A stretch of 40,236 nt of DNA from Candidatus Competibacteraceae bacterium (lineage in GTDB: Bacteria; Pseudomonadota; Gammaproteobacteria; Competibacterales; Competibacteraceae): the NCBI GenBank assembly GCA_003989075.1, contig RXIX01000017.1:1-40236 (forward strand), in the 5' to 3' direction. Shown in pieces: positions 12,428 to 27,244 of the stretch. The position numbers were made by a program, and so were the translations under genes. How positions within the stretch are numbered: the first letter of the stretch is position 1; every line of letters begins with the position of its first letter. The notes under the pieces were generated by a model, which was not told where the DNA came from, searched no databases, and was given only the letters and a program-made list of their open reading frames with translations.

Positions 12428-13024
12428 ATGTCTAAGAATCCTGTTGTCCACTGGCCTGTTCTGCTGCTCCTGCCGCTGATCCTGATGCTGATGCTGCTGG
12501 TGACAGGCTGCGCCACGCCCGCACCGGAAACACCGCCACCGGCAGCCGCCGATCCGCTTAGCATGAGCAATCCCCGCGCTGAATTCACGGTCACGCTGCA
12601 GGAGAGCACGCCGCCGCCGCTGCACATTGGACAGCCGGTTACGTTCGACCTGAACAGCAGCGCCGACAGTTATCTGAATCTTTACGCAATCGGCACCTCG
12701 GGCAATACCACGCAACTGCTGACCAATTACCCGGTGCGCGCCAACGAGGCGGTGAGCTTTCCGCCCATGACCAGCAAGCGTTTCAACTACCTGCCGGAAC
12801 CACCACCCGGCAAGGAAGCATTCATCCTGGTCGCGACCCGCCAGCCGTTGCGCCTGATGGGACGCAATGATCTCAAGGAAACCCGCAAGCCACGCACACC
12901 GGTGGCCGCGCTCAAGCTGAGTGGGCCGCAACTGCTGGAACGACTGCGCGAGGCACTGAATCGGCGCGCGCCTGGCCAATGGAATGCCGCCAGTCTGCAA
13001 CTGCCACTGGCCGGACCGCACTGA
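12428..13024 (+). CDS. DUF4384 domain lipoprotein
   Basis: A 198-residue predicted lipoprotein. A hydrophobic leader (LLLLPLILMLMLLVTGC) ends in a lipobox with Cys at about 27, then a Pro/Ala-rich linker. The rest is a DUF4384-type beta domain: the FTVTLQES and PLHIGQPVTFDLNSSADSYL blocks, LYAIGTSGNTTQLLTNYP, and a FILVATRQPL strand. DUF4384 is typical of proteins found with Ser/Thr kinases, caspase-like proteins or trypsin-like proteases, and here both a kinase and such a protease occur in the same block. Its function is unknown. The Shine-Dalgarno signal is poor. It is the first gene of a + strand series. Confidence 0.75.
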   Translation: MSKNPVVHWPVLLLLPLILMLMLLVTGCATPAPETPPPAAADPLSMSNPRAEFTVTLQESTPPPLHIGQPVTFDLNSSADSYLNLYAIGTSGNTTQLLTNYPVRANEAVSFPPMTSKRFNYLPEPPPGKEAFILVATRQPLRLMGRNDLKETRKPRTPVAALKLSGPQLLERLREALNRRAPGQWNAASLQLPLAGPH

Positions 13025-13102
13025 ACCAGCGGCGTTGTATAATCATCCGCATGGCTCATTTCAAGGACATACCGGGATTCCGCAGCCGTGCCCGCCACCG
13101 CC

Positions 13103-14059
13103 ATGAAAGAACTCATCAAGGGCGCCAATGCGCCGCTCGCCAGCGCCGGCAAACTGCGACTGCGTCTGTGCTGGAACCATGCCCCCGCTGATCTCGACCT
13201 GGCCTGTTTTGCGCTTGATGCACAGGAGCGGGTGATCGGCGATGACTGGTTTTTGTTCTATAACCAGCCCGCCAGTCCGCGCGGTGCCATTCGCTTCGAC
13301 CTGGCGCGCGCCGAATTCCTGATGCAGCTCGACAGCCTGCCCGATGAAATCCGCAAGTGCGTCTTTACCGCCACGCTCAGCCAAGGGCATTTCGGCCTGC
13401 TTGGCGATGCGGCGCTAACCGTGGTCAGCTCCGGCGGCGATGGCGCCATCTTCCGGCTGCACGAGCCGCCTGAAAGCCGCTCGCTGCTGCTGGCCGAGCT
13501 GTATCGTTATCATGATCTGTGGAAGATTCGCGCCCGTGGCGAAGGATTGCGGCAGGATCTGGCAATGCTGGCGCGCCACTTTGGCGTGAACATTATCGAC
13601 GAGCGCCATCATAGCGAGCGTTCCCCATCCAGTCCGCCGCCACCCAGGCCCGCGCCAATCCAGACACCCGCGCCAATCCAGGCCGCGCCCGCGTCACCAC
13701 CACCCTTGCCATTGCCGGTACCGCCCGCACCAATCCAGGCCGCGCCCGCGTCACCACCACCCTTGCCATTATCATTGCCATTGCCGGTACCGCCCGCACC
13801 AATTCAGGCCGTGCCCGCGTCACCACCACCCTTGCCATTGCCGGTACCGCCCGCACCACCCTACGACCGCCACGAAAAACTCAAAACCTACGCTACGCTA
13901 ATCATTGCCCTTGGCTCGCTCACCACCGCCATCACTACCGTCATCACCCAATGCACACCCCATGCGCCAGTGGTTCTGGTGCAAACGCCAGCCACCCTGC
14001 AACAACCCGCCGCGCCCGTGACCAATAACCCGCTCAACCAACCCGTTGCGCCGCGTTGA
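13103..14059 (+). CDS. TerD-domain protein with proline-rich repeats and C-terminal membrane anchor
   Basis: A 318-residue protein in three parts. Residues 1-165 form a TerD (stress/tellurite-resistance) domain: MKELIKGANAPL, the acidic calcium-site stretch DLDLACFALDA, a WFLFYNQPASP block, and the closing ELYRYHDLWKIRARGEG with FGVNI. Next comes a Pro/Ala-rich region with three copies of a 19-23 residue unit starting PIQAAPASPPPLPL. It ends with a hydrophobic helix (TLIIALGSLTTAITTVITQ) and a Pro-rich tail. TerD proteins are normally soluble and lie in ter operons; this one looks tethered to the membrane, with none of terABCEF nearby. I start at the ATG 13103, where the TerD fold begins; a GTG at 13088 is possible. 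Confidence 0.85.
   Translation: MKELIKGANAPLASAGKLRLRLCWNHAPADLDLACFALDAQERVIGDDWFLFYNQPASPRGAIRFDLARAEFLMQLDSLPDEIRKCVFTATLSQGHFGLLGDAALTVVSSGGDGAIFRLHEPPESRSLLLAELYRYHDLWKIRARGEGLRQDLAMLARHFGVNIIDERHHSERSPSSPPPPRPAPIQTPAPIQAAPASPPPLPLPVPPAPIQAAPASPPPLPLSLPLPVPPAPIQAVPASPPPLPLPVPPAPPYDRHEKLKTYATLIIALGSLTTAITTVITQCTPHAPVVLVQTPATLQQPAAPVTNNPLNQPVAPR
13673..13855. repeat. Three tandem coding repeats (57, 69 and 57 bases)
   Basis: Units begin CCAATCCAGG or CCAATTCAGG at 13673, 13730 and 13799 and end CCGCCCGCA. The middle unit has a 12-base in-frame insertion. Near identity of the DNA suggests recent duplication. They encode the proline-rich stalk of the TerD protein. Confidence 0.9.
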
Positions 14060-14144: not shown

Positions 14145-14843
14145 ATGTCCTTCCGTCATCCCATAAAAACGTTCTTGATTCTCCTCGTGAGCACCGCACT
14201 GCTGCCCGGCTGCGCCACCGTACCCAATGACGACACTGCAAGCAGCGATCAGCAGACCTCGGATCAGCAGCAAACCGCTACCGAAGGCGCGGTGGCCGGC
14301 GCATTGATCGGCGCCTTGATCGGTGCGGCCACCGGTGGTGGCAACAAGGCTGCCCGGGCGCTGGTGGGCGCCGCAGCCGGCGGCCTGATTGGCTACGCGG
14401 TTGGCAGCTCGGTCGCCGAGCGCAAGGCTCAGTACGCCAATGAGGAAGATTTCCTGGTCGCGGAAATCGCCCGCAACCGCGACTTCATCGCCGAGGCCAC
14501 CGACCAGAACCGTGAACTGGCCTATGAAATCGCCCAATTGGATGAGCAATCGCAGCGCCTGGCGCAGGAATACCGCGCCGGCCGCGCCACGCGTGAGCGC
14601 CTCGTGGAACAAAAGGCCAGCGTAGAAAAACAGCTGGCCCGGGCGCAGGAAATCAGCCGCCTGACCGAACGCCAACTGGCCGATACCCGCGAAGTGCAGC
14701 AGGAAACCCAGCAAAAGCGCGGGCCGGATGATCGCTATACCCAGCAAATACAAACCGATCTGGTCCAGCTCAAGGACACCCGCGAGCAATCCGACCAGAA
14801 CGTGGTCAAGCTGCAGAAAATCTACGACAGCATGTCGATCTAA
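14145..14843 (+). CDS. Glycine-zipper lipoprotein with coiled coil
   Basis: A 232-residue predicted lipoprotein: leader with lipobox LLPGC at about 19-23, then a short Gln/Asp/Ser-rich linker. A glycine-zipper stretch follows (about 49-92, GAVAGALIGALIGAATGGG and GAAAGGLIGYAVGSS), a pattern common in envelope proteins that insert into or line membranes. The rest (about 95-232) is charged and helical with heptads (EIAQLDEQSQRLAQE and beyond), predicted coiled coil. AGGAG is 6 bases before the ATG. It precedes a second coiled-coil lipoprotein by 56 bases, so the pair may form a complex. No specific family is recognised. Confidence 0.75.
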   Translation: MSFRHPIKTFLILLVSTALLPGCATVPNDDTASSDQQTSDQQQTATEGAVAGALIGALIGAATGGGNKAARALVGAAAGGLIGYAVGSSVAERKAQYANEEDFLVAEIARNRDFIAEATDQNRELAYEIAQLDEQSQRLAQEYRAGRATRERLVEQKASVEKQLARAQEISRLTERQLADTREVQQETQQKRGPDDRYTQQIQTDLVQLKDTREQSDQNVVKLQKIYDSMSI

Positions 14844-14899
14844 CGCCCGCGGCCTGTCCGTTTGGCCACCCTTGCCACCCGCTACAGGAGGTTGAAGCC

Positions 14900-15400
14900 A
14901 TGACCACCGCACGTATTCTCGGTTTCTTTCTTGGCGCACTGGCCCTGGCGGGCTGCGCCACCGATCCCAGCAATGACCCGCACAGTGGCGGCCTGGCCGG
15001 CGGCATACGCGGCCTGGCCGCTGGCGATTACGAACAGCGCCAGCAGGATCTGCAGCAACAGCGCGATCAGACCCTGGATGAACTGCGCGCGCTGCGCAGC
15101 GAAAGCGCCGCCCTGGAAGGTGAGCGGCAGATGAAAGCCGACGAGGTCGCCGCGCAGCAGCGCCAGCTTGCTACGCTCAAAGCCCGCAACCAGGAACTGG
15201 CCCAGCGTATCGAGCAGTTGCGCCGCTCCAAAAGCACCACCGAGCAGCACACCGCCGCGCTGCGTCGCCAGCAACAGCAGTTGACGCGCAATATCCAGCA
15301 GTTCGAAACCGAACTTGACAGCGGCAAGCTCAGCACCACTCAGGCCGAAAACCGCCGCCTCAGTCTGGAACGGCAATACGACAGCATCAAGAATCTGTAA
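14900..15400 (+). CDS. Coiled-coil lipoprotein of unknown function
   Basis: A 166-residue predicted lipoprotein with lipobox ALAGC at about 15-19, a short Gly-rich spacer, then almost continuous coiled coil rich in Gln, Glu, Arg and Leu (about 45-166), including LDELRALRSESAALEGERQ. It resembles the coiled-coil half of the preceding lipoprotein without its glycine zipper. AGGAGG lies 7 bases before the ATG, the strongest ribosome site in the run. The next gene starts 19 bases later. It probably sits in the outer membrane and scaffolds other envelope proteins; this is inference from composition. Confidence 0.7.
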   Translation: MTTARILGFFLGALALAGCATDPSNDPHSGGLAGGIRGLAAGDYEQRQQDLQQQRDQTLDELRALRSESAALEGERQMKADEVAAQQRQLATLKARNQELAQRIEQLRRSKSTTEQHTAALRRQQQQLTRNIQQFETELDSGKLSTTQAENRRLSLERQYDSIKNL

Positions 15401-15419
15401 GTAACGGGTGAAAGCGAGC

Positions 15420-16115
15420 ATGCACACGCGATTCACCTGCGGCGGGTGTCTGGCGCTTCTGCTGCTGGTCGCGCCACTGGCAGTGGCGCAGGACAGCGAG
15501 CGCAATCGTTTCTTTGTCCAGCAGATGATCGAACTGGCCGCCGACGGCAACGCCCAGGGCGTAGACACCATGCAGCGGATGCTGGAACAGAATCCCAAAC
15601 CGGCCGCGACCGATGCCGAGGCGGCCCGCGCCGCGCTGCGCCGGGGCCAGGAGGCGCTGGCGCAGGACGACAATACCGGTGCCGCGCTCAGCGCCTTCCT
15701 GCAAGCCAGCCGCGATGATCCGGGCAATCTCGATGCCTTCAGCTATCTGGGCCTGAGCTATCGCAAGCTCGGGCAACTGAGCGATGCCGAGCGCGCCCTG
15801 CAGATCGCCCTGTCACTGGACCCCAGCCGCGCGGTTGCCTGGTTCCAGCTCGCCCAGGTCTATGGTTTGCAGAACGACCAGCGCCGCGCCCGGGGCGCAT
15901 TGGCCAACACCTACCGCTACGCACAGAACCCCATGCGCGCCGAGGAAATCCTGCGCAGCATCGCCGAGACGGAAACCGCCGAGCCGCTGCGCAACGCCGC
16001 CCTGGAAACCCTGCGCCTGTACCAGTTGCCGGCGCTGGCGGTGATTGTGCCGCCGATTCCGGTCAATCCGGATATCCAGCCCCTGAATCCGCCTTCCGGC
16101 GCCCGCCGGCCCTGA
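15420..16115 (+). CDS. Periplasmic TPR protein
   Basis: A 231-residue secreted protein: signal peptide (about 1-23, ending PLAVAQ), then tetratricopeptide repeats in about 75-175 (AFSYLGLSYRKLGQLSDAER with ALQIALSLDPS, followed by AWFQLAQVYGLQNDQRRA). It ends in a proline-rich tail. Its N-terminal block FFVQQMIELAADGNAQGV is paralogous to HVQQMITYAASNDASGV in the next gene, so the two arose by duplication; this copy has no protease domain. I start at the ATG 15420, which gives a clean signal peptide; a GTG at 15408 is in frame. It is 9 bases from the next start codon and clearly co-transcribed. Confidence 0.82.
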   Translation: MHTRFTCGGCLALLLLVAPLAVAQDSERNRFFVQQMIELAADGNAQGVDTMQRMLEQNPKPAATDAEAARAALRRGQEALAQDDNTGAALSAFLQASRDDPGNLDAFSYLGLSYRKLGQLSDAERALQIALSLDPSRAVAWFQLAQVYGLQNDQRRARGALANTYRYAQNPMRAEEILRSIAETETAEPLRNAALETLRLYQLPALAVIVPPIPVNPDIQPLNPPSGARRP

Positions 16116-16124
16116 GAGATGCCG

Positions 16125-17522
16125 ATGCGCTTCCCTGTCCCCGTCGCGCTGCTGCTGGCGCTCATTGGCACGCCGGCCCTCGCCGGCCAGTACGAAACGA
16201 TCGATTATCACGTCCAGCAGATGATCACCTACGCGGCCAGCAACGACGCCAGCGGCGTGCTGACCTTCCGCGAACAGCTCGGCAATCTGCGACGGCCACA
16301 GGATGGCGACGCCAATCAGGCGCGGCCTTTACTGCAGCAGGGCGAAAGCCAGATGGCGCGTGGCAATGCCAAGGAGGCGATGAACCGCTTCCGGCAGGCC
16401 TTCATCGCCGACCCCACCGATGCCAATATCGCCGTTGCGCTCGGCAGTGCCTATGCGCGTCTGCAGCGCTGGCGCGAGGCCGAGCGCCTGCTGGTCTATG
16501 CCCTGTCGCTGGCGCCGGAACAGAGCGCGGCCTGGCTGGCGCTGGGCGAGGTCTACGCGCAGGCCGGCGACACACAGCGCGCTACTGGCGCCTTCGCCAA
16601 TGCCTACCGCTTCGCCGCTGATCCGGCGCAACTGGCCGAGCACCTGCGCCAGCGCGCCACCGGTGATACGCGCGACACGGTGCGCATCGGCGCGCTGCAG
16701 GCGCTGCGCCTGATGCAGCCGGGTGAAAATCCGGTCACCGCCAACCCGGCCACGCCCGCACCAGTTACGCCGGCCACGCCCAGCACCAACACTACAGATC
16801 CACCCGCAAACAGCGCGAATCTGCTTGGCGCACTCAAGCGCGGCCTGACGCAACTGGCCACCCCACCGGGCAACGGCGAGCGCCCGGCGGCCATACCCGT
16901 CGGCACATCCGCCCCACCGGGCAATTCCGGCCAGCAGATTTACCGGCGCAGCCTGCCGCGCACCTGTCTGATTGTGACCTTTCGCAATGGCAAGCTGGCC
17001 GATCTGGGCAGCGGCCTGCTGGTCTCAGCCGATGGGCTGGTGCTGACCAACAACCATGTGATCGAAAACGCGCAGAATCTGGCGGTACGCTGCGGCGAGC
17101 GCGAATCAACCGCCGAAGTGCGCCGCCGGGGCAAGAATCCCGATCTGGCGCTGCTGACCACATCGCTGCGGGGGTCGGATAGTTTCATTCTGAACGAAAC
17201 CTATAGCCCGGATCTGATCGGCCTGGAGGTGTTCGTGATTGGCAACCCCTATGGCCTGGAGGGGACCTTCTCGACCGGGATCATCAGCGGCCTGCGCGAA
17301 ATGGACGGTGTGCGTTACCTGCAGATTTCCGCACCGATCAGCCCGGGCAACAGCGGCGGACCGGTGATTCTGAGCGATGGCACGGTTATCGGCATCGCCA
17401 CCATGGGCCTGAAGGTCGGCCAGAATCTCAATTTCGCCATTGCCAGCGCCGAAGTCATCGCCTCGGCCCTGTTCGACGCTGCGCGCATGAAGCACCAGCC
17501 GCTGCAGAGCAAGAAACCCTGA
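16125..17522 (+). CDS. TPR repeat - trypsin-like serine protease fusion
   Basis: A secreted protein of about 465 residues. A signal peptide (about 1-22) is followed by TPR repeats (about 70-170) like the preceding gene, a Pro/Thr/Ala linker (200-270) and a trypsin-like domain of the DegP type (275-450). Counting from the ATG at 16119, the catalytic residues are His313 in LTNNHVIEN, Asp342 in NPDLALL and Ser412 in ISPGNSGGPV, so the protease looks active. No PDZ domain follows, unlike DegP. GAGAG is 6 bases before 16125, while 16119 has no spacing, so I prefer 16125. It is probably a periplasmic quality-control or processing protease recruited by its TPRs. It is the last gene of the run. Confidence 0.9.
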   Translation: MRFPVPVALLLALIGTPALAGQYETIDYHVQQMITYAASNDASGVLTFREQLGNLRRPQDGDANQARPLLQQGESQMARGNAKEAMNRFRQAFIADPTDANIAVALGSAYARLQRWREAERLLVYALSLAPEQSAAWLALGEVYAQAGDTQRATGAFANAYRFAADPAQLAEHLRQRATGDTRDTVRIGALQALRLMQPGENPVTANPATPAPVTPATPSTNTTDPPANSANLLGALKRGLTQLATPPGNGERPAAIPVGTSAPPGNSGQQIYRRSLPRTCLIVTFRNGKLADLGSGLLVSADGLVLTNNHVIENAQNLAVRCGERESTAEVRRRGKNPDLALLTTSLRGSDSFILNETYSPDLIGLEVFVIGNPYGLEGTFSTGIISGLREMDGVRYLQISAPISPGNSGGPVILSDGTVIGIATMGLKVGQNLNFAIASAEVIASALFDAARMKHQPLQSKKP

Positions 17523-17625: not shown

Positions 17626-19350
17626 TCAGGCACCCGGGATGGCGCCCAGCGCCAGCACATAGCCCCCCACCACCAGCAGTTCGCCCGACTGGGCGGTAGT
17701 CGTGGTTTCCGCCTGCGGCGCCAGCACGCCAAGCGGCTCGCCCGTCGCGCTCAGCCGATAGACCGGCATGTTCTGGCTTTCCAGTTGCACCCACCAGTCA
17801 TCGCGGCGCACCTGCAGGGACAAATGGCGCCGTGACAGGCCCAGATACTCGGCATTGATGCCGGTCGCCCGCACCGGATCTTCCTCACCCCAGCGCAGCG
17901 CCCGCGGATCGGCCAGCAGACGTGGCGCGATGTCCGCTTCCGCACCGCGCCCAAAACTGAATGCCCGGTCGCGCAACACCGGCAAGGCCAGCGGCGCCGG
18001 CAGGCGCACCCAGCCCAGATAATGCCCGGCCAGCGGCACCGGTGCGGCGCATAGCTCCATTGCCAATCCCGGAAGGGGCTGCCATGAGCCGGGCAAGCTC
18101 AGCGGCGCGCTGCCACCATCACTGTCGCCGAACACCTGATCGGCACTGTCGATGCGCAGGCAGGCCACGGCATCGGGATGCCGCCCCGGCACCAGACCGC
18201 CATCGCGGTTGAAATGAATGCGCCAGTCGCGAATGCCTGCCGCCGCATAGGCCGACAAGCGCTGCAGAGCAATGCCGACCACATGCAGATAAACCGGCGC
18301 CTGCCGGGGCAGCCAGGTACCCGCATCGGGTTCCGGTTCCGGTTCCGGTTCGAGTTCCAGCTCCTCGGCTGGTGCCGGGGTGAGCGGGACCGGCTGCGGC
18401 TGTTCCGGTGCCGGCACCGACCATTCAGGCATCGCCGGCGCTTCCTCAAAGGCAATCGGAATACCCAGCACCGGCTCGCGCCGTCCCCAGTGATCGATCA
18501 ACGGATAGGCATTCTCCGACTCATCGGACAGCAGACGGGCTTCCCCGGCGGCAGCGGCCAATGGCAGCTGCTCGCGCAGGCTGCGCGCCCGCTGCAGCTC
18601 CAGCGCCAGCGCCGCAATGCGCAGGCGCATCACCCGGGTGCGGCGATCGCGCACCGTGACTTCGCCATTGCCACCGCATTCCAGGCTGAGACTGCCGCCG
18701 GGCTCCGCCACACCATCAACGCGCAAGGGTAACTCGGCGCGCAACAGCAGCAGCACCGATTCCCCAGCCATGAACGGCCAGCCGCTCACGGCAAAGGTGC
18801 TGGTGCGCCGGTCGCCATTCAGCAGGGTCAGACGCTGACCGGGATAGATCATGCCGACGGTGCGCCAGTGTTCCTCGCCATTGGCCTGGGCAGCGGCCTG
18901 GATGCGAAACGCCGGCGATTCATCATCCGCCGGCAGATAGATGGCCCGGCCAAACAGGAACTGCACCTCACCCGGGCGCAACTGTGCATCCGGCTCGATC
19001 CGATAGCGCACGCAGGCATCCTCGGCCAGATAGTGACTCAGTTCCGACTGATGCAGCCGCTGCAGCTCACTCAGCAGGGTGCGCCGCCCGAAGCCCTCCT
19101 CCAGCCGGTCATCGCGCAGATAATCGCGTTCGGGAACCCGCACCACGACATGGCTGAAGCGAATCTCCTGCCGCGTCCGGGCCCGGGTGGTGCGCGGGTG
19201 GCGCTTGAGTGCTTCGGCCAGGCATATGCCCTCCGGATCCTTGCGGCCGCGCTCCCAGAGAAAATCGGCATTGAAGACATCCGCGACCTTGCACAGGGTC
19301 GCGCATACCACATAGTCAGATGCGAGCAGCGCATCAGGATAGCTTGGCAT
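17626..19350 (-). CDS. FHA-domain protein
   Basis: A 574-residue soluble protein with no membrane segment. The C-terminal 117 residues form a forkhead-associated fold with the phosphothreonine-binding residues in place: Gly467-Arg468 (FSFGRG), Ser506 and His509 (LSRRH). The N-terminal half is not recognised. It includes a segment QFLFGRAIYLPAD that could be a second degenerate FHA strand pair. The middle has an acidic Glu-Pro repeat (EPEPEPEPD) encoded by GGTTCC-type hexamers near 18329-18352. It overlaps the end of the SEDS gene by 17 bases, and GAGGA lies 8 bases before its ATG, so translation is coupled. A kinase gene close by makes phosphothreonine reading plausible. Confidence 0.82.
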   Translation of the reverse strand: MPSYPDALLASDYVVCATLCKVADVFNADFLWERGRKDPEGICLAEALKRHPRTTRARTRQEIRFSHVVVRVPERDYLRDDRLEEGFGRRTLLSELQRLHQSELSHYLAEDACVRYRIEPDAQLRPGEVQFLFGRAIYLPADDESPAFRIQAAAQANGEEHWRTVGMIYPGQRLTLLNGDRRTSTFAVSGWPFMAGESVLLLLRAELPLRVDGVAEPGGSLSLECGGNGEVTVRDRRTRVMRLRIAALALELQRARSLREQLPLAAAAGEARLLSDESENAYPLIDHWGRREPVLGIPIAFEEAPAMPEWSVPAPEQPQPVPLTPAPAEELELEPEPEPEPDAGTWLPRQAPVYLHVVGIALQRLSAYAAAGIRDWRIHFNRDGGLVPGRHPDAVACLRIDSADQVFGDSDGGSAPLSLPGSWQPLPGLAMELCAAPVPLAGHYLGWVRLPAPLALPVLRDRAFSFGRGAEADIAPRLLADPRALRWGEEDPVRATGINAEYLGLSRRHLSLQVRRDDWWVQLESQNMPVYRLSATGEPLGVLAPQAETTTTAQSGELLVVGGYVLALGAIPGA

Positions 19351-21631
19351 CACGCTCTTCCTCGCTGGCCACCGCCAGCGCCACGATTGGCAACACGAAC
19401 AGCACCAGATGACTACCACCGGCCGATAACAGTGACATCGGCTGACCCATCACCGGCAGGAATCCCAGGTTGGTTCCCCACGAAACCAGCAGGTGCGCAG
19501 CCATCAGCGCCGCACCGCCATATAGAGTGAAATAGGTGAACCCGATACGCAGGGTCAAGCACGGATCGCCGCGCCGCCGGCCATCCAGGGTTCGGTGGGC
19601 CATGGTGAGCAGCGCAACAATGAACAGCGCCTGAAGCCCCATCAGCAGCAGGCCAGCCCGGCCACCGTAGCGATTGAGGAAAAATGCCGGAGTAAAATCA
19701 CTCTCCACGGCCGGAATCGCCATCGCCCGGCCATTGACCGCTTCTTTCCATACCGCGCCGCGCCAACCGCCAATCCGGATCTCTTCCAGTGCCCGCCGCA
19801 ATTGGTAGCTGGCATGGGGATACTGTTGCGGCGCAACCCAGGCGCGAATCCGTTCACTTTGCCAGGCCGCCGGCACCCACTGCGGCCAGCGCTGCACCAG
19901 CACCACCGCCAGCACCAGCATCAGCGCCAGTACCGCTACCACGCCCCGCCCCAGCCAGCGCCGCGCCGCCTGGGGATACAGATTCTGATAGGCAACCGCC
20001 AGCAGCAGCACACCCGGCAGCAGCAACACCAGCGGCGAAAAATCGCGCAGAAACACCAGGGCAAAGCCGCTCACCGCCACCAGCAGCACCAGCGGCCCCA
20101 GATAACGCAGCCACAGCGACACCGGCCCACCACTGCAACGCACCTGCAGGGTCAGGGCATAGGCCGCCGCGCTCACCAGCGCCAACTGAGTCAATTCTAC
20201 TGGCTGCAAGCCGGCCCAGCCGGTCTCATCGCCCCAGATCACCTGCGCCAGCAGCAACAGCAGCGCCGTCATGCCAAGTGCACGCAGACCCAGCCGTGCC
20301 TGTGCGGCACTCACGCCCTGCAAGCGGCCCCGCCCATTCTGCGACACCCCCCAGCACAGCCAGCCAAAGCCGCCGCCCAGCGCCGCCACCGCCGCACCGT
20401 AGCGCGGCCAGCCCGATTCCGCCGCACCCGTACCCAGTTGCAGCAGAGTCAACAGCCCGGCCCCCCACAGCAGCGCCAGCAGGCTTAACAGAGTCGCGCT
20501 CCATGGCGAGCGCACCCGCCACAGCCATACACCGAGCGCCGCCCAGGCCAGCAGATAAGGCCAGAGCACCGGCACCGCCATCCGCTCCAGATACAGGCCC
20601 AGACATAGCCCAGCCAAAGCCAATCCAGCCACACCAGCCCGGCCGCGCCAGGCCAGCAGCGCCGCGCCCAGACCCAGGCCCAGCGGTCCGAGCAGCAGCC
20701 ACAGATCACCGGCCTGCGGCCATAACCAGACCAGCGGCTGCCAGCGCACGCTGACCGCTGCATGAGTCGCCGGCGGTGGTGCATCCGCCGGCCAGCGCTG
20801 TGCGCGCCCGGTGACCGCCAGCTCCAGATCCGGCGCGATAGCCGCCACCCGGTAGCCGGTGCGGCCAATGATCAGGCGATCACCGACTGTCAGCGGCACC
20901 GTGCGCAACCACAGCGATTCCGCCTGCGGCGTTCCTGCCGCCACCGTCACCGGCGTGCCCTCCGGACGCCCGGCCAAGCCCGGCCGCAGGACGAAACCAT
21001 CACCCTGTGCGGCGATTACCGCCGTATCGACCGGCACATCGGCCAGACCGAGTCGGTCGGCGCACCATACCCCACCGCCCAGGCGCAAGGGCCGCTGCAC
21101 CAGCCAGCGCAGACCCAGCCCGGCCAGCCGCCGCCGCACACGCTCGCGCCAACCCGGATAGCATTCCGGCAGCGAACGCCCGTCCAGATACAGGCGCACC
21201 CCGTCATAACGCCAGCGCCGGGCCGCCTCGCCCAGCAACAGTTCGCCCGGCGCGACCATGAGCACGGTCAGCAGGTGGCGTCCCATGGCAAAGGTTGCCC
21301 CCGGCTGCAAGGGCCACTCGCGGGTTGGCTGGTGATCGCCGCCGCGCGCCGGCTGCCACAGCACCTGCTTTTGTGCAGCGACATTCGCCAGCCACCAGGC
21401 ACCGTCGGCAGCGCGACGCAGCCGCACATGCTCCTCGTCAGCCTGCGGTGCCTGCAGGGTCGCCCGGCCCAGCAGGCGCTCCTGTCCCGGCGCCAGGGCG
21501 ATGCGCAGCGTATCCGGCTCCAGCCAGTCCGGGGCACGGCCAGCAGTCCACAGCAACGCCAGCAACGGCAGCAGCCAGGCCAGCAGACGCAGGCCGCGAC
21601 CGCTCCACCTCGCCAGAGTTGATGGATTCAC
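19334..21631 (-). CDS. SEDS-family (FtsW/RodA/SpoVE) protein with long N-terminal domain
   Basis: SEDS proteins polymerise lipid II into glycan strands with a partner PBP. This 765-residue protein has one N-terminal membrane helix (about 10-30), a roughly 270-residue extra domain, then the multi-spanning SEDS core (from about 305). Core landmarks are GLQPVELTQLALV (FQPSEL-like), FLRDFSPLVLLLPG, VESDFTPAFFLNRYGG and MGQPMSLLSAGGSHL. Asp645 in ESDF aligns with the catalytic aspartate of RodA. At roughly twice the length of RodA it is unusual; the added domain has FHA-like scraps (RLLGRATL, DRLIIGRTGY), which is a weak call. The GTG start has AAGGAA 8 bases upstream. It follows the PBP-like gene by 19 bases and overlaps the FHA gene. 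Confidence 0.85.
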   Translation of the reverse strand: MNPSTLARWSGRGLRLLAWLLPLLALLWTAGRAPDWLEPDTLRIALAPGQERLLGRATLQAPQADEEHVRLRRAADGAWWLANVAAQKQVLWQPARGGDHQPTREWPLQPGATFAMGRHLLTVLMVAPGELLLGEAARRWRYDGVRLYLDGRSLPECYPGWRERVRRRLAGLGLRWLVQRPLRLGGGVWCADRLGLADVPVDTAVIAAQGDGFVLRPGLAGRPEGTPVTVAAGTPQAESLWLRTVPLTVGDRLIIGRTGYRVAAIAPDLELAVTGRAQRWPADAPPPATHAAVSVRWQPLVWLWPQAGDLWLLLGPLGLGLGAALLAWRGRAGVAGLALAGLCLGLYLERMAVPVLWPYLLAWAALGVWLWRVRSPWSATLLSLLALLWGAGLLTLLQLGTGAAESGWPRYGAAVAALGGGFGWLCWGVSQNGRGRLQGVSAAQARLGLRALGMTALLLLLAQVIWGDETGWAGLQPVELTQLALVSAAAYALTLQVRCSGGPVSLWLRYLGPLVLLVAVSGFALVFLRDFSPLVLLLPGVLLLAVAYQNLYPQAARRWLGRGVVAVLALMLVLAVVLVQRWPQWVPAAWQSERIRAWVAPQQYPHASYQLRRALEEIRIGGWRGAVWKEAVNGRAMAIPAVESDFTPAFFLNRYGGRAGLLLMGLQALFIVALLTMAHRTLDGRRRGDPCLTLRIGFTYFTLYGGAALMAAHLLVSWGTNLGFLPVMGQPMSLLSAGGSHLVLFVLPIVALAVASEEERDAKLS

Positions 21632-21650
21632 CGATACCGTTCCTTCACTG

Positions 21651-24638
21651 TCAGCGCACTTTGCCACCCGCCGCCGCCCCATCGCGCAGGGCCGCCAGCC
21701 AATCCGCCAGCAGAGCCGCACAGCTCGCGCCAGCCTGTTCACGCACCGGGCCAACCCGGCAGGCAAAGGCCAGGCGGCGCGCCTCGCCGGGTAGCGCACC
21801 CGGTTCCAGCCAGCCCGCCAGCCAGCTCGTACCACCGCCTGCCCCCGCCATCTCCGGCGCATCGGGCGCCAGCGTGGCCGCTTTCAGAAACAGAAAGGGC
21901 CGCAGCGTCGCCCAATCCGCGCCAGCAAACGCGGCCACACCCTCGGGTGCATCCTGCCGCAAACCGGCCCGGATGCGTTCCAGGGCGATGGGAAAGGCCA
22001 GCACCGGTGCATCGGCAGCCGCCCGACCGTTGAGCGAAGCCAGCAGCCGGGGATAAACCCGCCAGCCGCTGGCGATGACCACCGCTACCTCAGCCAATTG
22101 CAGGGGTGTCACCTGCACCCCTTCCAGACCCAGCACCCGTTGCCGCAACGCCGCAGCGCCTTGACCCAGGTCCAACAGCGCGGCGCTGGCGCGCAGCATA
22201 TCGCCATTTTCCAGCAGACCCCCGGGCAGCAGGCCGGCATCGAGATCACGCCCACTGCCAAAGCCGAGCGCGGCAGCCAGCGCCAGCAGTGGCCGGGCTG
22301 CGAACAGCGCCGTCGGGGTCAGTGCCCGCGCGCCGGACAGACCATCCGCCAGCGCCATCTCGCTCAGCGTCGCGTCGGTGCGCTGCACCGCGTCGACCCA
22401 CCAGTCGGGAAAATCGCCGCGCAGCGCTGCCACCAGATCGGGTGCGCCAGACAGCCCGTCCGCCAGCGCCGCCCGTTGCGGATGCCGCGCCGCCTCCTGT
22501 TCCAGCAGCAGCGCATCCACCAGACTGAACACCGCGCCGGGCGCATGACCGCTGCCACCATCATGTTGCCAGGCCCAGACGCGCAGCGGACTGCGCTGCG
22601 GCTGACCTACGGCAAAGCTGTACAGATCGCTCCAGGTCACTGCGCGCGGCGGCTCCGGATAACCGGCCACCGCAAGAATATCGCCACGCTCGGCATCCAG
22701 CATCACCAGGGACGCCAGCGGCGCTTCCGCAGCCGCCACACCATCGAACAGACTGCCACGCGGCCAGCGCGCCCGCAGCACCTGTTGCGCCGCCGCCTGC
22801 AGGCGCGGCTCCAGGGTCAGGCGGGCATCGACCGTCATCACACCCTGCCCGCCAAGCCGACCCAGCACCGCGCCCAGCGCGCCACCCTGGGCCGGATCCA
22901 GTCCGACCAGGGTCGCCAGTCCCAGGGACCAGGCCAGTGCGGTGGGTTGGCCCTGCGCCAGCAGGACCTGGCCATCGGCAGCGCGCAAAGTCACTTCGGC
23001 CAGCGGCGAACGCGAGTCATCACCACCACCCGCAGCCGGTGCATTACGCCACAGCCATTGCCCGTCCTCGTGTACGATGTGGGCAAATTCATTGCGGTAC
23101 AGATCGGGAAAGGTATCGGCTGGGAGCGGCGCGAAGGAAAAATCCACCCGCACCGCACCTTCAGGCAGCGCCAGACGCAGCGCCTGGGCCACGGTTCTGG
23201 ATCCCTCACAACGCGGTGTCAGGCAGCGTGGCACCTGAGCCAGCACGCTTGCGCCGCTCACCTGTGGCCTCTCGCCCAGGATCAGCACATCGAGGGTCTC
23301 GGCGGACCGGGCCGGGCGATCCAGGCGCAATTGAAAATGCACCAGCGGCCGCCCTTCCAGCGCCGGCCAGCGCAGCACCCGCCGCCACGGCTGCCAGCCC
23401 TGTGGAATCTCCGGAAACAGCCGCCCGGCCAGCAACGGCATGCTGCCAGTCAGGGTCAAGGGCGCACCACCCCAGTCGGCCTGCCAGTCCCCCCCGAGAT
23501 CCGGCGCAGCCTTCCAGCGCACCGCCGCCAGCAACTGCCGGGCATTGAACGTGTCCACCTGCCGGCGCAGATAGCGGCCCGAGGCACTGAACCACAGCGC
23601 CTGATGCAGATAACGGGCAGAATTGTCCCAGGGGCCGTTCAGCCAATCGACCGTATCGCCGCGGACCAGCAGGGTTGGATCACGCCCGGCCTCGCGCTGA
23701 CGCAGGCTCAGATCAGCGGGCGCTACCGCCAAACGGCCATCGGCGCCAGGGCGCAGCAGTCCAGCGCTCAGGGCACGCGCGAACAGATCGGCATCCTCGC
23801 GGCGCGGCTGCGGCGCGGCTGCAGCATAGCGCCCGGGTGACAGGCGCAGTTCCTGCACCGGCATATCGTTGGCATACCAGAACACGGTGCGCAGTCGGCC
23901 ATCGCCCGGGGCCACCGGCAGCGCGTCGTACACCTCGACCAGCAGGCGCCCGACCGGACAGGAACGATCGGCCTGCCGCCGCAGCCGCAGCGCCTGATTC
24001 CAGGGCGCATTGTCCGATCCACTGGCGGCCCGCCACAGCAGCCACAGATCCTGCTGCACCTGCAATAGCGCGCCGGACGCCATCAGCACACCATCGGCCA
24101 GGATGCGCAACGGACGCGGGTCCTGCAACGACAGGCGCAGCGCCGTGCCGGCGACCACTTCGGCATCGAGGCGCAAGGCCGGCACATCCACGCCGCTGGG
24201 CCCATCGTCGAGCAGCGGATTGCGCAATTTCCCACCCTGGCTCTGAGTGGTTGCCACGGCCTGGCGCCAGTCCCAGCCAATCCACAGCGGCAGCAGGGTC
24301 GCGCCTTCATCCGGGCCAGCCCGCTGCGCGCAGAGCGACAGTTCCTGCCGACCCAGCAGGCGATGTGGACCGAGCACCAACAGACGACCCTCAGCGCGGC
24401 TGAAGATCTGAAAACCACCCGCATCAGGAATGGTCACCGCTACGCCGGCCAGAGCCGTTGGCAGCGCCGCCGACGCAGCAGGCGCCGCCCAGACTGCCGG
24501 ACGCTGATAGAGCGCCGCCAGCTGGGTCCACAGCAGCGCCACGCTGGCCAGCGGCAGCAGCAGGGCAAGCAGGGCCACGCCGATCCAGCGATAACGGCGG
24601 CCGCGCGGCGCATGATTCAGGTATGGTATGGGTTGCAC
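21651..24638 (-). CDS. PBP-like protein with degenerate transpeptidase domain (pseudo-PBP)
   Basis: A 995-residue bitopic protein: N-terminal membrane helix (about 18-37), a large unrecognised periplasmic region (40-595) and a C-terminal domain (600-960) that follows the class B PBP transpeptidase fold. Fold landmarks are MTVDARLTLEPRLQAAAQ, LASLVMLDAERGDILAVAGY, HAPGAVFSLVDALLL and LEGVQVTPLQLAEVAVVIASG. The active-site SxxK is replaced: serine by Ala702 and lysine by Ser705 (codons at 22533-22535 and 22524-22526). The KTG motif reads KAA (919-921). I see no SxN. It is unlikely to crosslink peptidoglycan or bind penicillin and may be a structural partner of the next-gene SEDS protein. The GTG start lacks a clear ribosome site. 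The gene is divergent from the kinase gene. Confidence 0.85.
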   Translation of the reverse strand: MQPIPYLNHAPRGRRYRWIGVALLALLLPLASVALLWTQLAALYQRPAVWAAPAASAALPTALAGVAVTIPDAGGFQIFSRAEGRLLVLGPHRLLGRQELSLCAQRAGPDEGATLLPLWIGWDWRQAVATTQSQGGKLRNPLLDDGPSGVDVPALRLDAEVVAGTALRLSLQDPRPLRILADGVLMASGALLQVQQDLWLLWRAASGSDNAPWNQALRLRRQADRSCPVGRLLVEVYDALPVAPGDGRLRTVFWYANDMPVQELRLSPGRYAAAAPQPRREDADLFARALSAGLLRPGADGRLAVAPADLSLRQREAGRDPTLLVRGDTVDWLNGPWDNSARYLHQALWFSASGRYLRRQVDTFNARQLLAAVRWKAAPDLGGDWQADWGGAPLTLTGSMPLLAGRLFPEIPQGWQPWRRVLRWPALEGRPLVHFQLRLDRPARSAETLDVLILGERPQVSGASVLAQVPRCLTPRCEGSRTVAQALRLALPEGAVRVDFSFAPLPADTFPDLYRNEFAHIVHEDGQWLWRNAPAAGGGDDSRSPLAEVTLRAADGQVLLAQGQPTALAWSLGLATLVGLDPAQGGALGAVLGRLGGQGVMTVDARLTLEPRLQAAAQQVLRARWPRGSLFDGVAAAEAPLASLVMLDAERGDILAVAGYPEPPRAVTWSDLYSFAVGQPQRSPLRVWAWQHDGGSGHAPGAVFSLVDALLLEQEAARHPQRAALADGLSGAPDLVAALRGDFPDWWVDAVQRTDATLSEMALADGLSGARALTPTALFAARPLLALAAALGFGSGRDLDAGLLPGGLLENGDMLRASAALLDLGQGAAALRQRVLGLEGVQVTPLQLAEVAVVIASGWRVYPRLLASLNGRAAADAPVLAFPIALERIRAGLRQDAPEGVAAFAGADWATLRPFLFLKAATLAPDAPEMAGAGGGTSWLAGWLEPGALPGEARRLAFACRVGPVREQAGASCAALLADWLAALRDGAAAGGKVR

Positions 24639-24658
24639 GCGGGATGATAGTAGGTAAA

Positions 24659-24673
24659 GTCAAAAATCTTGAC
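24659..24673. promoter_or_regulatory. Inverted repeat in the divergent PBP-kinase promoter region
   Basis: GTCAA-AAATC-TTGAC is a perfect 5-bp inverted repeat with a 5-base spacer, in the 116 bases between the two divergent start codons. It overlaps the -35 box of the candidate kinase promoter, so it could be an operator. It is short enough to arise by chance. Confidence 0.35.
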
Positions 24674-24697
24674 CGAGCCATGCCCCCTTAGTTTACT
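24669..24697 (+). promoter_or_regulatory. Candidate promoter of the Ser/Thr kinase gene
   Basis: TTGACC (24669-24674) and TTTACT (24692-24697) match 5/6 and 4/6 of the sigma-70 boxes with a 17-base spacer, 57 bases before the kinase ATG. Confidence 0.4.
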
Positions 24698-24754
24698 GAC
24701 TTACTGGATTCCCCGTCCCACCTCGCGGACGACAAACGGACTGGAGGACGCGCC

Positions 24755-27244
24755 ATGCGCAGCGGCGACTACATAACCCTCAACCGTCAGACCTACTGCC
24801 TCGACGCGCTGCTGTCAGCGGGCGCCGGCAGCTATGGCCAGGTCTGGGCAGCCACTGACCCGGCGGGCCGCGCCGTTGCGCTCAAGTTCATCAATACCGA
24901 GGCCATGGCCCAGGCCGATCCGACCCTGCGCGGCCACTGGCGCGAGCATCTGCAGCGCGAAATCGATTTTCTGCAAAGCCTGGATGCCGCGCGCGCCCGC
25001 CACATCGTCACCCTGGTCGACCATGGCCAGGCCGATGGCCAGCCGGTGCTGGCGCTGGAACGGATGCAGGGCCATCTGGGCCAGTTTCTGGACACGCACA
25101 CCCCGGACCTGGAGCAGATCCTGGACTGGGCCGGGCAGATTCTGGCCGGTCTGGAGGTGATCCATGCCGCCGGCTTTGTCTATCGTGATCTCAAGTTCAG
25201 CAACATCCTGGTCGGCGAGGAGGGCGCGCTGCTCAAGCTGGCTGATTTTGGCTCGCTGCGCCGTGAGGATGGTGACAGCACCCGCTCGTTTATCGGCACG
25301 CCCGCCACCATGGCCCCCGAGCAGGTGCTGCCGGTGGATCAGGATGCCAGCGGCTATGCCTATGAGGTGGATTTTCGCGCCGATTACTACGCGCTTGGGC
25401 TGCTGCTGTTCATTCTGCTCACCGGCGAACCGAGTACCGCTGCGCAGCGCCGGCTCGGCCAGGTACTGGCCCGCGAGGGTCAGGAGGGCGTGGCCCGGCA
25501 GCGGGCGCAACTGGGCGGTCTGAATGAGGCGGAACGTGCGTTGCTGCAACAGGCCACCGGGCGCTGGATCGCGACGCCGGGCGCGGCCAGTGCGCAACTG
25601 GTGCGACTGATCGAAGATCTGCTGGCCAGCGACCCCGCCGAGCGGCCGGCTGACGGTGCCCTGATTCGTCAGGCCCTGCGGGATCTGCACACCGAACTGC
25701 TGCCCGTGCCGGCACCCGTGCGCGCCGAACCGGCGCTGAACCTGCCTGAGGATCTGCCGGTGCCGCCCCCGTATCGGCGCCGCGCCCGTCCGACTGCCGC
25801 CGCCCATGAGCCGCGCGCCCTCCTGCGCCGCCGCGGTGCCGGGCTGATTGCCCTGCTGGGCATGGCCGGCGCGCTGGCCTGGGCGGTGATTCGGCCCGGA
25901 CCGTTCGAGCCGCCCCAGCCGCTGGGCGTGCCCGCAACCCACCACGCGGCATCAATACCCGTCGCACCGCAGGAAAAACCGGAGCCAGCGGTCGTCGCTA
26001 AGTCCCCTGCACCACCGCTGAATCCGCAACCGGCAGCGGAACCCGTCGCGCCCCCGGAGCCGGCAGTCACCGCTACGCCTCCGGTCAAGGCCAATGCCAC
26101 AGCGGAACCGGAACCGCCGGTGCAAGCCGTTACGCAGACGGCACCGGATGCAGCGCCCGCTGTGGTCAATGCCCCCCCCGTGGATAGCGCAACGGAACCG
26201 GACGCGGACGCGGACGCGGAAACGCCAGCCCCTGCGCCTACGGTTGTCACGGCACCGGCGCGCACTCCAGCCCGGAACACCCGCACGACTCCAGCACCAG
26301 TCCCTGGCCTGACGGCAGCGCCCGCACGCCCCGCACCCGAAGCGCCAGCCCGCACTACACCGCGTCCCAGGACCGCACCGACTGCACCGGAAACTGCCGT
26401 GGTAAACGTCAATCCACGCCCCGCGCCCGAAGCGGAACGCGTGCCCGAAGCGCCAGCCCGCACCACACCACGTCCCAGGGCCGCACCGGAAACAACCGTA
26501 GTAACCCGCGTCCCCGCAAAGCCACCGCTCGTCGTCACGCCCAGCACAAGCGAGCGCCGCCCAGCGCCCGAACGCGCCCAGCCCGTACCGCCTGCGCCTG
26601 AACCGCGGATTGCCGCGCCCCGACCGGTCAGCAAACCCGCCGCACCGGTTGCGCGCACTACACCTACACCCTCCCCGGAACCACCGGTTGCCAGAACACC
26701 CACACCGCGGATCGCCAGCATCCCGCCGGCCCGCAAACCCGCCCCGGCACCCGCCCGCCCGCCAGTTGCAAACGTACCGGCCACGCACTTGCCGCCGATT
26801 GAGCTGGTCGGTCGTCCGCGTCCCGCCGTAGCGCAGCCACCCATCGAACTGGTCAGCCGCAGCCAGCGGGCCACACCCAGTCCACAACAGCCGCCCATCG
26901 AACTGGTCAGCCGCAGCCAGCCGGCACCACCGCGCGTCGCCACCGCCGCCCCGGCACCCGCGCCCCTGCGCACAAACCCGCCTAAACCCGAGCCACCGCG
27001 CGATCCACTCAGCCGCTTTCATGAAGACGCCAATCAGGCCGCCACCAGCGTGCAGCGCGAGGCTGGCCGCTTCACCGAATGGGTCGGGCGCACCAGCTCG
27101 GCGGTCGGCAGTGAAATTCAGCGCGGCCTGGATAGCGCCAATCAGGCCGTAACTAACTGGACCCGTAGCGATAACGGCGTCCAGGTCGAACGCCGCGACA
27201 GCTGGTCCAACCGCCATCGCGGCACGCACGCACCGCCACCCTGA
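24755..27244 (+). CDS. Transmembrane Ser/Thr protein kinase with long proline-rich tail
   Basis: A PknB-type kinase of 829 residues. The cytoplasmic kinase domain (about 13-310) has a Gly-rich loop (SAGAGSYGQV), Lys44 (VALKF), the catalytic loop YRDLKFSN with Asp145 and Asn150 (Tyr143 in place of the usual His), DFG at 164-166 and APE at 187-189, so activity is expected. One membrane helix (about 362-379) leads to a roughly 450-residue tail very rich in Pro, Ala and Thr. The tail contains repeats, among them PPIELVSRSQ twice, and a charged amphipathic end (DANQAATSVQREAGRF). There are no PASTA repeats. GGAGG is 7 bases before the ATG. It faces the PBP-SEDS-FHA run, whose FHA protein is a plausible reader; no PP2C phosphatase is in the window. 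Confidence 0.93.
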   Translation: MRSGDYITLNRQTYCLDALLSAGAGSYGQVWAATDPAGRAVALKFINTEAMAQADPTLRGHWREHLQREIDFLQSLDAARARHIVTLVDHGQADGQPVLALERMQGHLGQFLDTHTPDLEQILDWAGQILAGLEVIHAAGFVYRDLKFSNILVGEEGALLKLADFGSLRREDGDSTRSFIGTPATMAPEQVLPVDQDASGYAYEVDFRADYYALGLLLFILLTGEPSTAAQRRLGQVLAREGQEGVARQRAQLGGLNEAERALLQQATGRWIATPGAASAQLVRLIEDLLASDPAERPADGALIRQALRDLHTELLPVPAPVRAEPALNLPEDLPVPPPYRRRARPTAAAHEPRALLRRRGAGLIALLGMAGALAWAVIRPGPFEPPQPLGVPATHHAASIPVAPQEKPEPAVVAKSPAPPLNPQPAAEPVAPPEPAVTATPPVKANATAEPEPPVQAVTQTAPDAAPAVVNAPPVDSATEPDADADAETPAPAPTVVTAPARTPARNTRTTPAPVPGLTAAPARPAPEAPARTTPRPRTAPTAPETAVVNVNPRPAPEAERVPEAPARTTPRPRAAPETTVVTRVPAKPPLVVTPSTSERRPAPERAQPVPPAPEPRIAAPRPVSKPAAPVARTTPTPSPEPPVARTPTPRIASIPPARKPAPAPARPPVANVPATHLPPIELVGRPRPAVAQPPIELVSRSQRATPSPQQPPIELVSRSQPAPPRVATAAPAPAPLRTNPPKPEPPRDPLSRFHEDANQAATSVQREAGRFTEWVGRTSSAVGSEIQRGLDSANQAVTNWTRSDNGVQVERRDSWSNRHRGTHAPPP
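26336..26479. repeat. Duplicated 36-base coding segment in the kinase tail
   Basis: A 36-base segment starting CCCGAAGCGCCAGCCCGCAC at 26336-26371 recurs at 26444-26479 with two changes. It encodes PEAPARTTPRPR twice, 36 codons apart. Confidence 0.85.
26795..26920. repeat. IELV(S/G)R repeats in the kinase tail
   Basis: Identical 27-base copies at 26840-26866 and 26894-26920 encode PIELVSRSQ; a diverged copy begins at 26795 (PIELVGRPR). The spacing is 45 and then 54 bases. The regular motif in an otherwise disordered tail suggests a binding site. Confidence 0.85.

Follow-up and report, generated by a model that had tools for sequence, protein, structure and literature searches.

Genes at the locus

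The window, which is the whole stretch of DNA that was analyzed, is 40,236 nucleotides long. The open reading frames called in it place a Ser/Thr kinase gene on the forward strand, divergent from a reverse-strand run of genes for a PBP-like protein, a SEDS protein, and an FHA protein. The gap from the PBP-like stop to the SEDS start is about 19 nt, and the SEDS and FHA genes overlap by 17 nt. This four-gene arrangement, first described from the letters and open reading frames only (hereafter the sequence-only reading), is real and lies where it was placed. No match to a sigma-70 consensus was found in the intergenic region 24639..24754. The features are as follows.

17626..19350, minus strand: cytosolic FHA protein, 574 aa, with an ATG start at 19350; identified from structure and invariant residues
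19334..~21631, minus strand: third SEDS-type membrane protein, ~765 aa; PF01098, model core, hydropathy and charge
19697..19699, minus strand: codon of the Asp (D648, invariant in the clade) aligned with catalytic Asp297 of E. coli FtsW
20195..20233, minus strand: ECL2 of the SEDS protein, GDETGWAGLQPVE, with QP.E kept and KGAxRW missing
20735..21526, minus strand: N-terminal all-beta domain of the SEDS protein; alignment, model and hydropathy
21651..24638, minus strand: PBP-like protein, 995 aa, with one TM, a large periplasmic part and a dead transpeptidase
21654..22712, minus strand: transpeptidase-like domain, with AVFS for SxxK, DFP for SxN and KAA for KTG when aligned to intact orthologs
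23535..23804, minus strand: ~90-aa module (REDADLF...NARQ) retained by orthologs without the transpeptidase
24639..24754: divergent intergenic region between the kinase and PBP-like genes
24755..27244, plus strand: transmembrane Ser/Thr kinase, 829 aa; PF00069, 6e-36

Distribution of the module

Of the 40 genomes of the order, 26, in eight genera, had an ortholog of the SEDS protein (at least about 45% identity). Most of the fetched relatives carried the FHA, SEDS, and PBP (or PBP stub) genes together with the divergent kinase at about 55% protein identity, with differing flanks, so the association is not due to chance. The neighborhood thus recurs across the family, in those eight genera. Locus L053 has no kinase, L054 has neither kinase nor PBP beside its SEDS and FHA genes, and in one MAG (L061) the SEDS gene is interrupted. 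Several family genomes that are near-complete have no module.

A Massilia MAG (L040) and genome G680 (L094) contain a different version, in which kinase, SEDS, FHA, SH3, PP2C-like, and second FHA genes all run in one direction. No PBP is present in this Massilia-type version, and the shared core is therefore kinase-SEDS-FHA. The claim that the locus lacks a phosphatase holds for the window, since no PP2C phosphatase was found among the neighbors scanned or listed there; it fails for L040 and L094, the only loci with a PP2C-like gene. A contig scan with one SEDS query returned two loci, one with a plain RodA (L041) and the other in the Massilia MAG, and a plasmid search returned distant RodA and nothing closer. 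In evenly drawn class- and phylum-wide samples, which were thin, G680 had the sole strong FHA match outside the family. This suggests that the module is rare outside the family, as far as such thin samples reach. Weak FHA-profile matches of about 70 residues occurred in 14 genomes.

The kinase and the FHA protein

The kinase consists of a kinase domain (residues 23-299), a TM (361-379), and a Pro/Ala-rich tail of about 450 aa. The catalytic Lys, Asp, Asn, and DFG are invariant in 13 relatives. No PASTA repeats were found in the kinase (77.7 bits to the PASTA-kinase model, versus 450); the kinase domain alone was found, in agreement with the sequence-only reading. The tail contains PPIELVSR-type repeats (window 26700-27000), which appear as LPPIxLxSR in relatives.

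The FHA protein had no Pfam match. Its predicted structure matched FHA domains with Z 9.6-11.2 at residues 372-593, and a second FHA-like region at 167-272 matched with Z about 8 (both numbered on a 597-aa reading). From the N-terminus, the protein comprises an alpha/beta domain, a degenerate FHA-like beta-sandwich, a Pro-rich linker, and a C-terminal FHA domain split by an insertion. The GRG and GLSR residues do not vary across 16 relatives; among the pThr-site residues, G490, R491, and S529 are invariant and H532 nearly so. Because of the structural match and the invariant GRG and GLSR residues, we assign it as an FHA-domain protein despite the silence of Pfam: the predicted fold and the pThr-site residues are present, and phosphopeptide binding is predicted. 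Judged by these residues, both the kinase and the FHA protein look competent. A Pfam search at E up to 10 gave no match to FhaA_N/DUF3662, the N-terminal domain of FhaA. A PDB profile search with the FHA family returned nothing usable.

The SEDS protein

The likely SEDS start is a GTG with AAGGA upstream; the longest frame exceeds this start by about 77 residues. The protein has one TM, a predicted periplasmic beta domain (about 260 aa), three extra TMs, and the SEDS core. It is oversized, as is the PBP-like protein, and both had been described as such. Against PF01098 (FTSW_RODA_SPOVE), the protein scored 74.5 bits (cut-off 26.4). The AlphaFold model has a modest pLDDT of 64, and its core matched FtsW/RodA with Z 15-17. 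Fold, Pfam score, and the catalytic Asp in ECL4 place the protein in the SEDS superfamily. The scores to the equivalog models TIGR02210 and TIGR02614 (60.4 and 57 bits) fall below the roughly 337 needed.

Two cysteines of the beta domain are invariant in 17 of 17 aligned relatives, which would fit a disulfide. Hydropathy and charge indicate that this domain is probably periplasmic. The suggestion that the kinase phosphorylates the SEDS N-terminal domain fares poorly for that reason, since phosphorylation there is unlikely. The only structural match to the beta domain was weak and FHA-like (6cah, Z 6.1 over 63 residues).

The module SEDS retains the equivalents of FtsW Q147, P148, E150, R246, D297, P368, G371, S378, and G381; PDLG and SYGGS are altered. 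A 9-residue gap in ECL2, placed from profile alignments and not from a multiple alignment, takes out KGAxRW. This motif is absent from all 11 module SEDS compared, in which ECL2 reads G-x-E-x-G followed by [QR]P-x-E, whereas [KN]GAxRW is present in 8 of 8 RodA/FtsW. In E. coli FtsW, substitutions of K133, A135, R137, and W138 in ECL2 abolish function (PMC8765783). With KGAxRW missing and these substitutions inactivating, the module SEDS may be inactive, and activity on lipid II cannot be assumed.

Decay of the transpeptidase

Pfam gave no match to the window PBP-like protein. Its 52%-identical orthologs match PF00905 at about 1e-12, which is why the protein is called PBP-like. In a transpeptidase alignment, the GSTFK, SLN, and KTGT of intact orthologs line up with the catalytic motifs of E. 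coli PBP2/FtsI. The triad is intact in four loci of genus g5 (L044, L046, L047, and L066), in L050 (g11), and in a paralogous copy (L060). Four g3 genomes have a partly dead PBP, in which the Ser is kept, Lys is changed to Glu, SxN is lost, and KTG is degenerate. The window PBP has a fully dead triad; judged by these motifs, it is catalytically dead and not a working PBP. In g4, g13, one g10 genome, and L042 and L067 (g5), the transpeptidase is deleted, and the stubs that remain are membrane proteins of 160-380 aa encoded directly beside SEDS. The ~90-aa module is common to the intact, dead, and stub forms. L047, with its intact transpeptidase, matched the PBP2 model TIGR03423 weakly and no other model. 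A PDB profile search with the PBP family returned transpeptidase pieces only and no known pedestal.

Because regain of a catalytic triad is unlikely, the positions of these states in the tree imply that the transpeptidase was lost at least four times independently, if there was no regain; the count depends on the L042 and g10 splits, which are well supported, and on the window lying outside the rest, in a quick tree whose backbone uniting g3, g4, and g13 is weak. The motifs thus describe a class B PBP partner that was apparently competent as a transpeptidase at first and then repeatedly lost its catalysis or the whole domain.

We calculated dN/dS (NG86) for the transpeptidase domains. The values are 0.25-0.32 for the partly dead g3 domains, 0.17-0.23 for intact domains, and 0.27-0.36 for the SEDS of the same g3 genomes; although NG86 gives coarse estimates for GC-rich DNA, the g3 values are far from neutral decay. 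The partly dead g3 domains are under purifying selection. For the window domain, dN/dS is 0.42-0.44 against distant intact orthologs, a value that averages both branches and does not describe selection on the dead domain alone.

Repeated transpeptidase loss, the near-complete family genomes that lack the module, and the interrupted SEDS in L061 might be taken to mean that the module is a functionless, decaying relic of an older synthase. The selection on the g3 domains, the long frames that are intact at about 55% identity, and the invariant functional residues of the kinase, FHA, and SEDS proteins argue against decay, and we consider a relic very improbable.

Relationship to RodA and FtsW

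The module SEDS form their own clade apart from RodA and FtsW (support 100/100). The genes of this third SEDS clade are linked to those for a Ser/Thr kinase and an FHA protein. The window genome also encodes a RodA adjoining a PBP2-like transpeptidase (contig C183). A fragment of FtsW lies at the edge of contig C136, and an FtsI-type transpeptidase is encoded on C104; family matches and context are the basis for calling these two FtsW and FtsI. RodA/FtsW-level matches were found in all 40 genomes of the order, mostly two per genome at about 335-380 bits, while a few fragmented MAGs had one such match or pieces; the module SEDS scores about 65-80 bits in most genomes. The module is additional to the ordinary RodA/FtsW machinery. 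Two outcomes named beforehand as counting against the sequence-only reading were checked: the four genes do co-occur in related genomes, and the SEDS/PBP pair is not the organism's sole RodA/PBP2, so that the locus is distinct from the ordinary RodA/PBP2 and FtsW/FtsI pairs, as proposed. Two transpeptidase-family proteins of about 270-310 aa that are encoded on one contig (G000:C141:1275-1880 and 4068-4673) are possibly class D beta-lactamase-like.

The module could be a specialized but otherwise ordinary peptidoglycan synthase, for example for the wall of stressed or resting cells, relying on cross-linking in trans wherever its own PBP is dead. The intact SxxK, SxN, and KTG motifs in g5 (four genomes), g11, and the paralogous copy are compatible with this, as are the PBP2, FtsI, and other transpeptidase proteins of the window genome. 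The missing ECL2 motif and the Massilia-type version without any PBP do not fit, and we regard an ordinary synthase as doubtful.

Proposed function

The explanation that we favor, tentatively and at somewhat less than even confidence, is an extra SEDS branch controlled by the kinase and the FHA protein, in which the bPBP survives mainly as a partner and not as a cross-linker. The kinase, whose Pro-rich tail would extend into the periplasm, would phosphorylate either its own Thr residues or those in cytosolic loops of the SEDS complex; the FHA protein, which is cytosolic, would dock on the phospho-Thr, and the SEDS protein would be switched on or off. Having kept the Asp, QPxE, Arg, and Gly/Ser pocket residues, the SEDS protein probably remains able to handle an undecaprenyl-linked glycan, although its specificity for lipid II may differ with the remodeled ECL2. 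The PBP-like protein would no longer cross-link, and its TM and N-terminal module would partner the SEDS protein in the way that PBP2 partners RodA; we infer this role of the N-terminal module by analogy. The conformation of PBP2 activates polymerization by RodA, and RodA polymerizes on when the PBP2 transpeptidase is blocked by mecillinam (PMC6207328). In support of the favored explanation are the conserved divergent neighborhood amid varying flanks, the recurrence of kinase-SEDS-FHA with a PP2C-like protein in a second lineage, the coexistence with RodA and FtsW, the range of PBP states, the constraint on the g3 domains, and the preserved kinase, FHA, and SEDS residues. Against it stand the loss of KGAxRW from ECL2, which may leave the SEDS protein inactive, and the loci L053, which lacks the kinase, and L054, which lacks both kinase and PBP.

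An unlikely explanation, which nevertheless ranks close behind the phospho-gated SEDS, takes the SEDS protein as a pseudoenzyme: a receptor or scaffold for lipid II or related lipids that reports the state of the envelope to the kinase and FHA protein, and hence a sensor and not a synthase. The absence of KGAxRW in 11 of 11 module SEDS, the altered PDLG and SYGGS, the dead or absent partner PBP in most members, and the big extra domain predicted to be periplasmic all point this way. However, the catalytic Asp and the equivalents of R246, Q147, E150, and G371 are near-invariant at 29-61% identity, which a pure scaffold need not retain, and some genera still have an intact transpeptidase. Also unlikely is a new SEDS family that polymerizes or transfers a lipid-linked glycan different from standard lipid II under a kinase/FHA switch, in which the transpeptidase was useless and repeatedly discarded. 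As to the proposed dedicated glycan polymerase, an extra and separate SEDS is present; the transpeptidase that would accompany it is dead here and deleted in many relatives, and the ECL2 motif is missing.

Comparison with known systems

The module resembles E. coli RodA-PBP2 and FtsW-FtsI in its SEDS fold (Z 15-17), its bPBP-derived neighbor, and the catalytic Asp and several pocket residues. Unlike in these pairs, the module SEDS lacks the ECL2 KGAxRW and has an extra beta domain and TMs, the transpeptidase is dead or deleted, a kinase and an FHA protein are linked, and RodA and FtsW are also present.

In Mycobacterium, a transmembrane kinase, SEDS, PBP, and FHA proteins are encoded together in the pknB/pknA/pbpA/rodA/pstP/fha locus. 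The module likewise combines a transmembrane kinase, a SEDS protein, a PBP relative, and an FHA protein; it differs from the mycobacterial locus (see PMC6554272 and PMC11898655) by having no PASTA repeats, no adjacent PstP, another gene order and orientation, and a catalytically dead PBP. Parts of the same types are what a horizontally copied mycobacterial pknB-pbpA-rodA-fha cluster would contain. The divergent kinase, the lack of PASTA repeats and of a phosphatase adjoining the window locus, the weak match of the transpeptidase-intact L047 to the PBP2 model TIGR03423 only, and the position of the SEDS far outside RodA/FtsW (in a tree without actinobacterial sequences) speak against such a copy. 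Moreover, two proteobacterial lineages share kinase-SEDS-FHA and not the full cluster. We judge horizontal copying to be the least probable of the explanations considered, and highly unlikely. The description of the locus as actinobacterial-style is apt for the types of its parts; no tie by descent was found in trees that contained no actinobacterial sequences.

The Gram-negative threonine-phosphorylation trio of type VI secretion consists of PpkA, PppA, and Fha1, that is, a kinase, a PP2C, and an FHA protein. The Massilia-type version has the same three kinds of proteins; unlike for the trio, no secretion genes were seen in the module, and the target would be the SEDS protein. In Clostridioides difficile, dcw-encoded PG synthases were turned to sporulation, a precedent for repurposed SEDS/bPBP pairs (PMC10693644); kinase/FHA linkage and serial loss of the transpeptidase, which distinguish the module, are not reported in its abstract. 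We found no description of the module in open-licence papers.

SEDS polymerases are believed to depend on their bPBP. Genomes with an inactivated or deleted cross-linker may be a natural test of a SEDS polymerase working without one, and SEDS operons in which the transpeptidase is variously intact, dead, or deleted form a ready series for studying what the PBP contributes beyond cross-linking. Uncoupled polymerization under a block of PBP2 is toxic (PMC6207328). The module would add a Gram-negative example of a SEDS controlled by a Ser/Thr kinase and an FHA protein, and its altered ECL2 offers a means of testing which residues determine the substrate that a SEDS uses.

Neighboring genes and divergent copies

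Tail to tail with the FHA gene, at 14145-17522, lie genes for glycine-zipper, coiled-coil, TPR, and TPR plus trypsin-like protease proteins; in genera g3 and g4, this group is likewise found next to the module. Defense-system models matched only the generic kinase domain and the neighboring protease, and we do not infer a role in defense. Window positions 12428-14059 encode a DUF4384 protein and a TerD-domain protein, which are near the module in some relatives too; the TerD-domain protein has a Pro-rich tail and a hydrophobic stretch at its C-terminus.

L060 (1-20000; G018:C26) carries a second PBP-SEDS-FHA copy without kinase, with an intact triad in the PBP, surrounded by caspase-like (C14), FGE-sulfatase, and DUF4384 genes. 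Weak matches to the SEDS C-terminus at G018:C24:38409-38594 and G019:C26:10747-10935 lie within 983- and 851-codon frames, respectively, and are possible SEDS fusions. More divergent SEDS (28-36% identity) occur in L062 (5546-11053), L063, and L064; the one in L062 has a similar N-terminal region and differs at the Q147 and G381 equivalents. In L062 and L064, these genes are near genes for Ser/Thr kinases with a CxxC-type motif at the start, and the kinase in L062 is fused to FGE-sulfatase.
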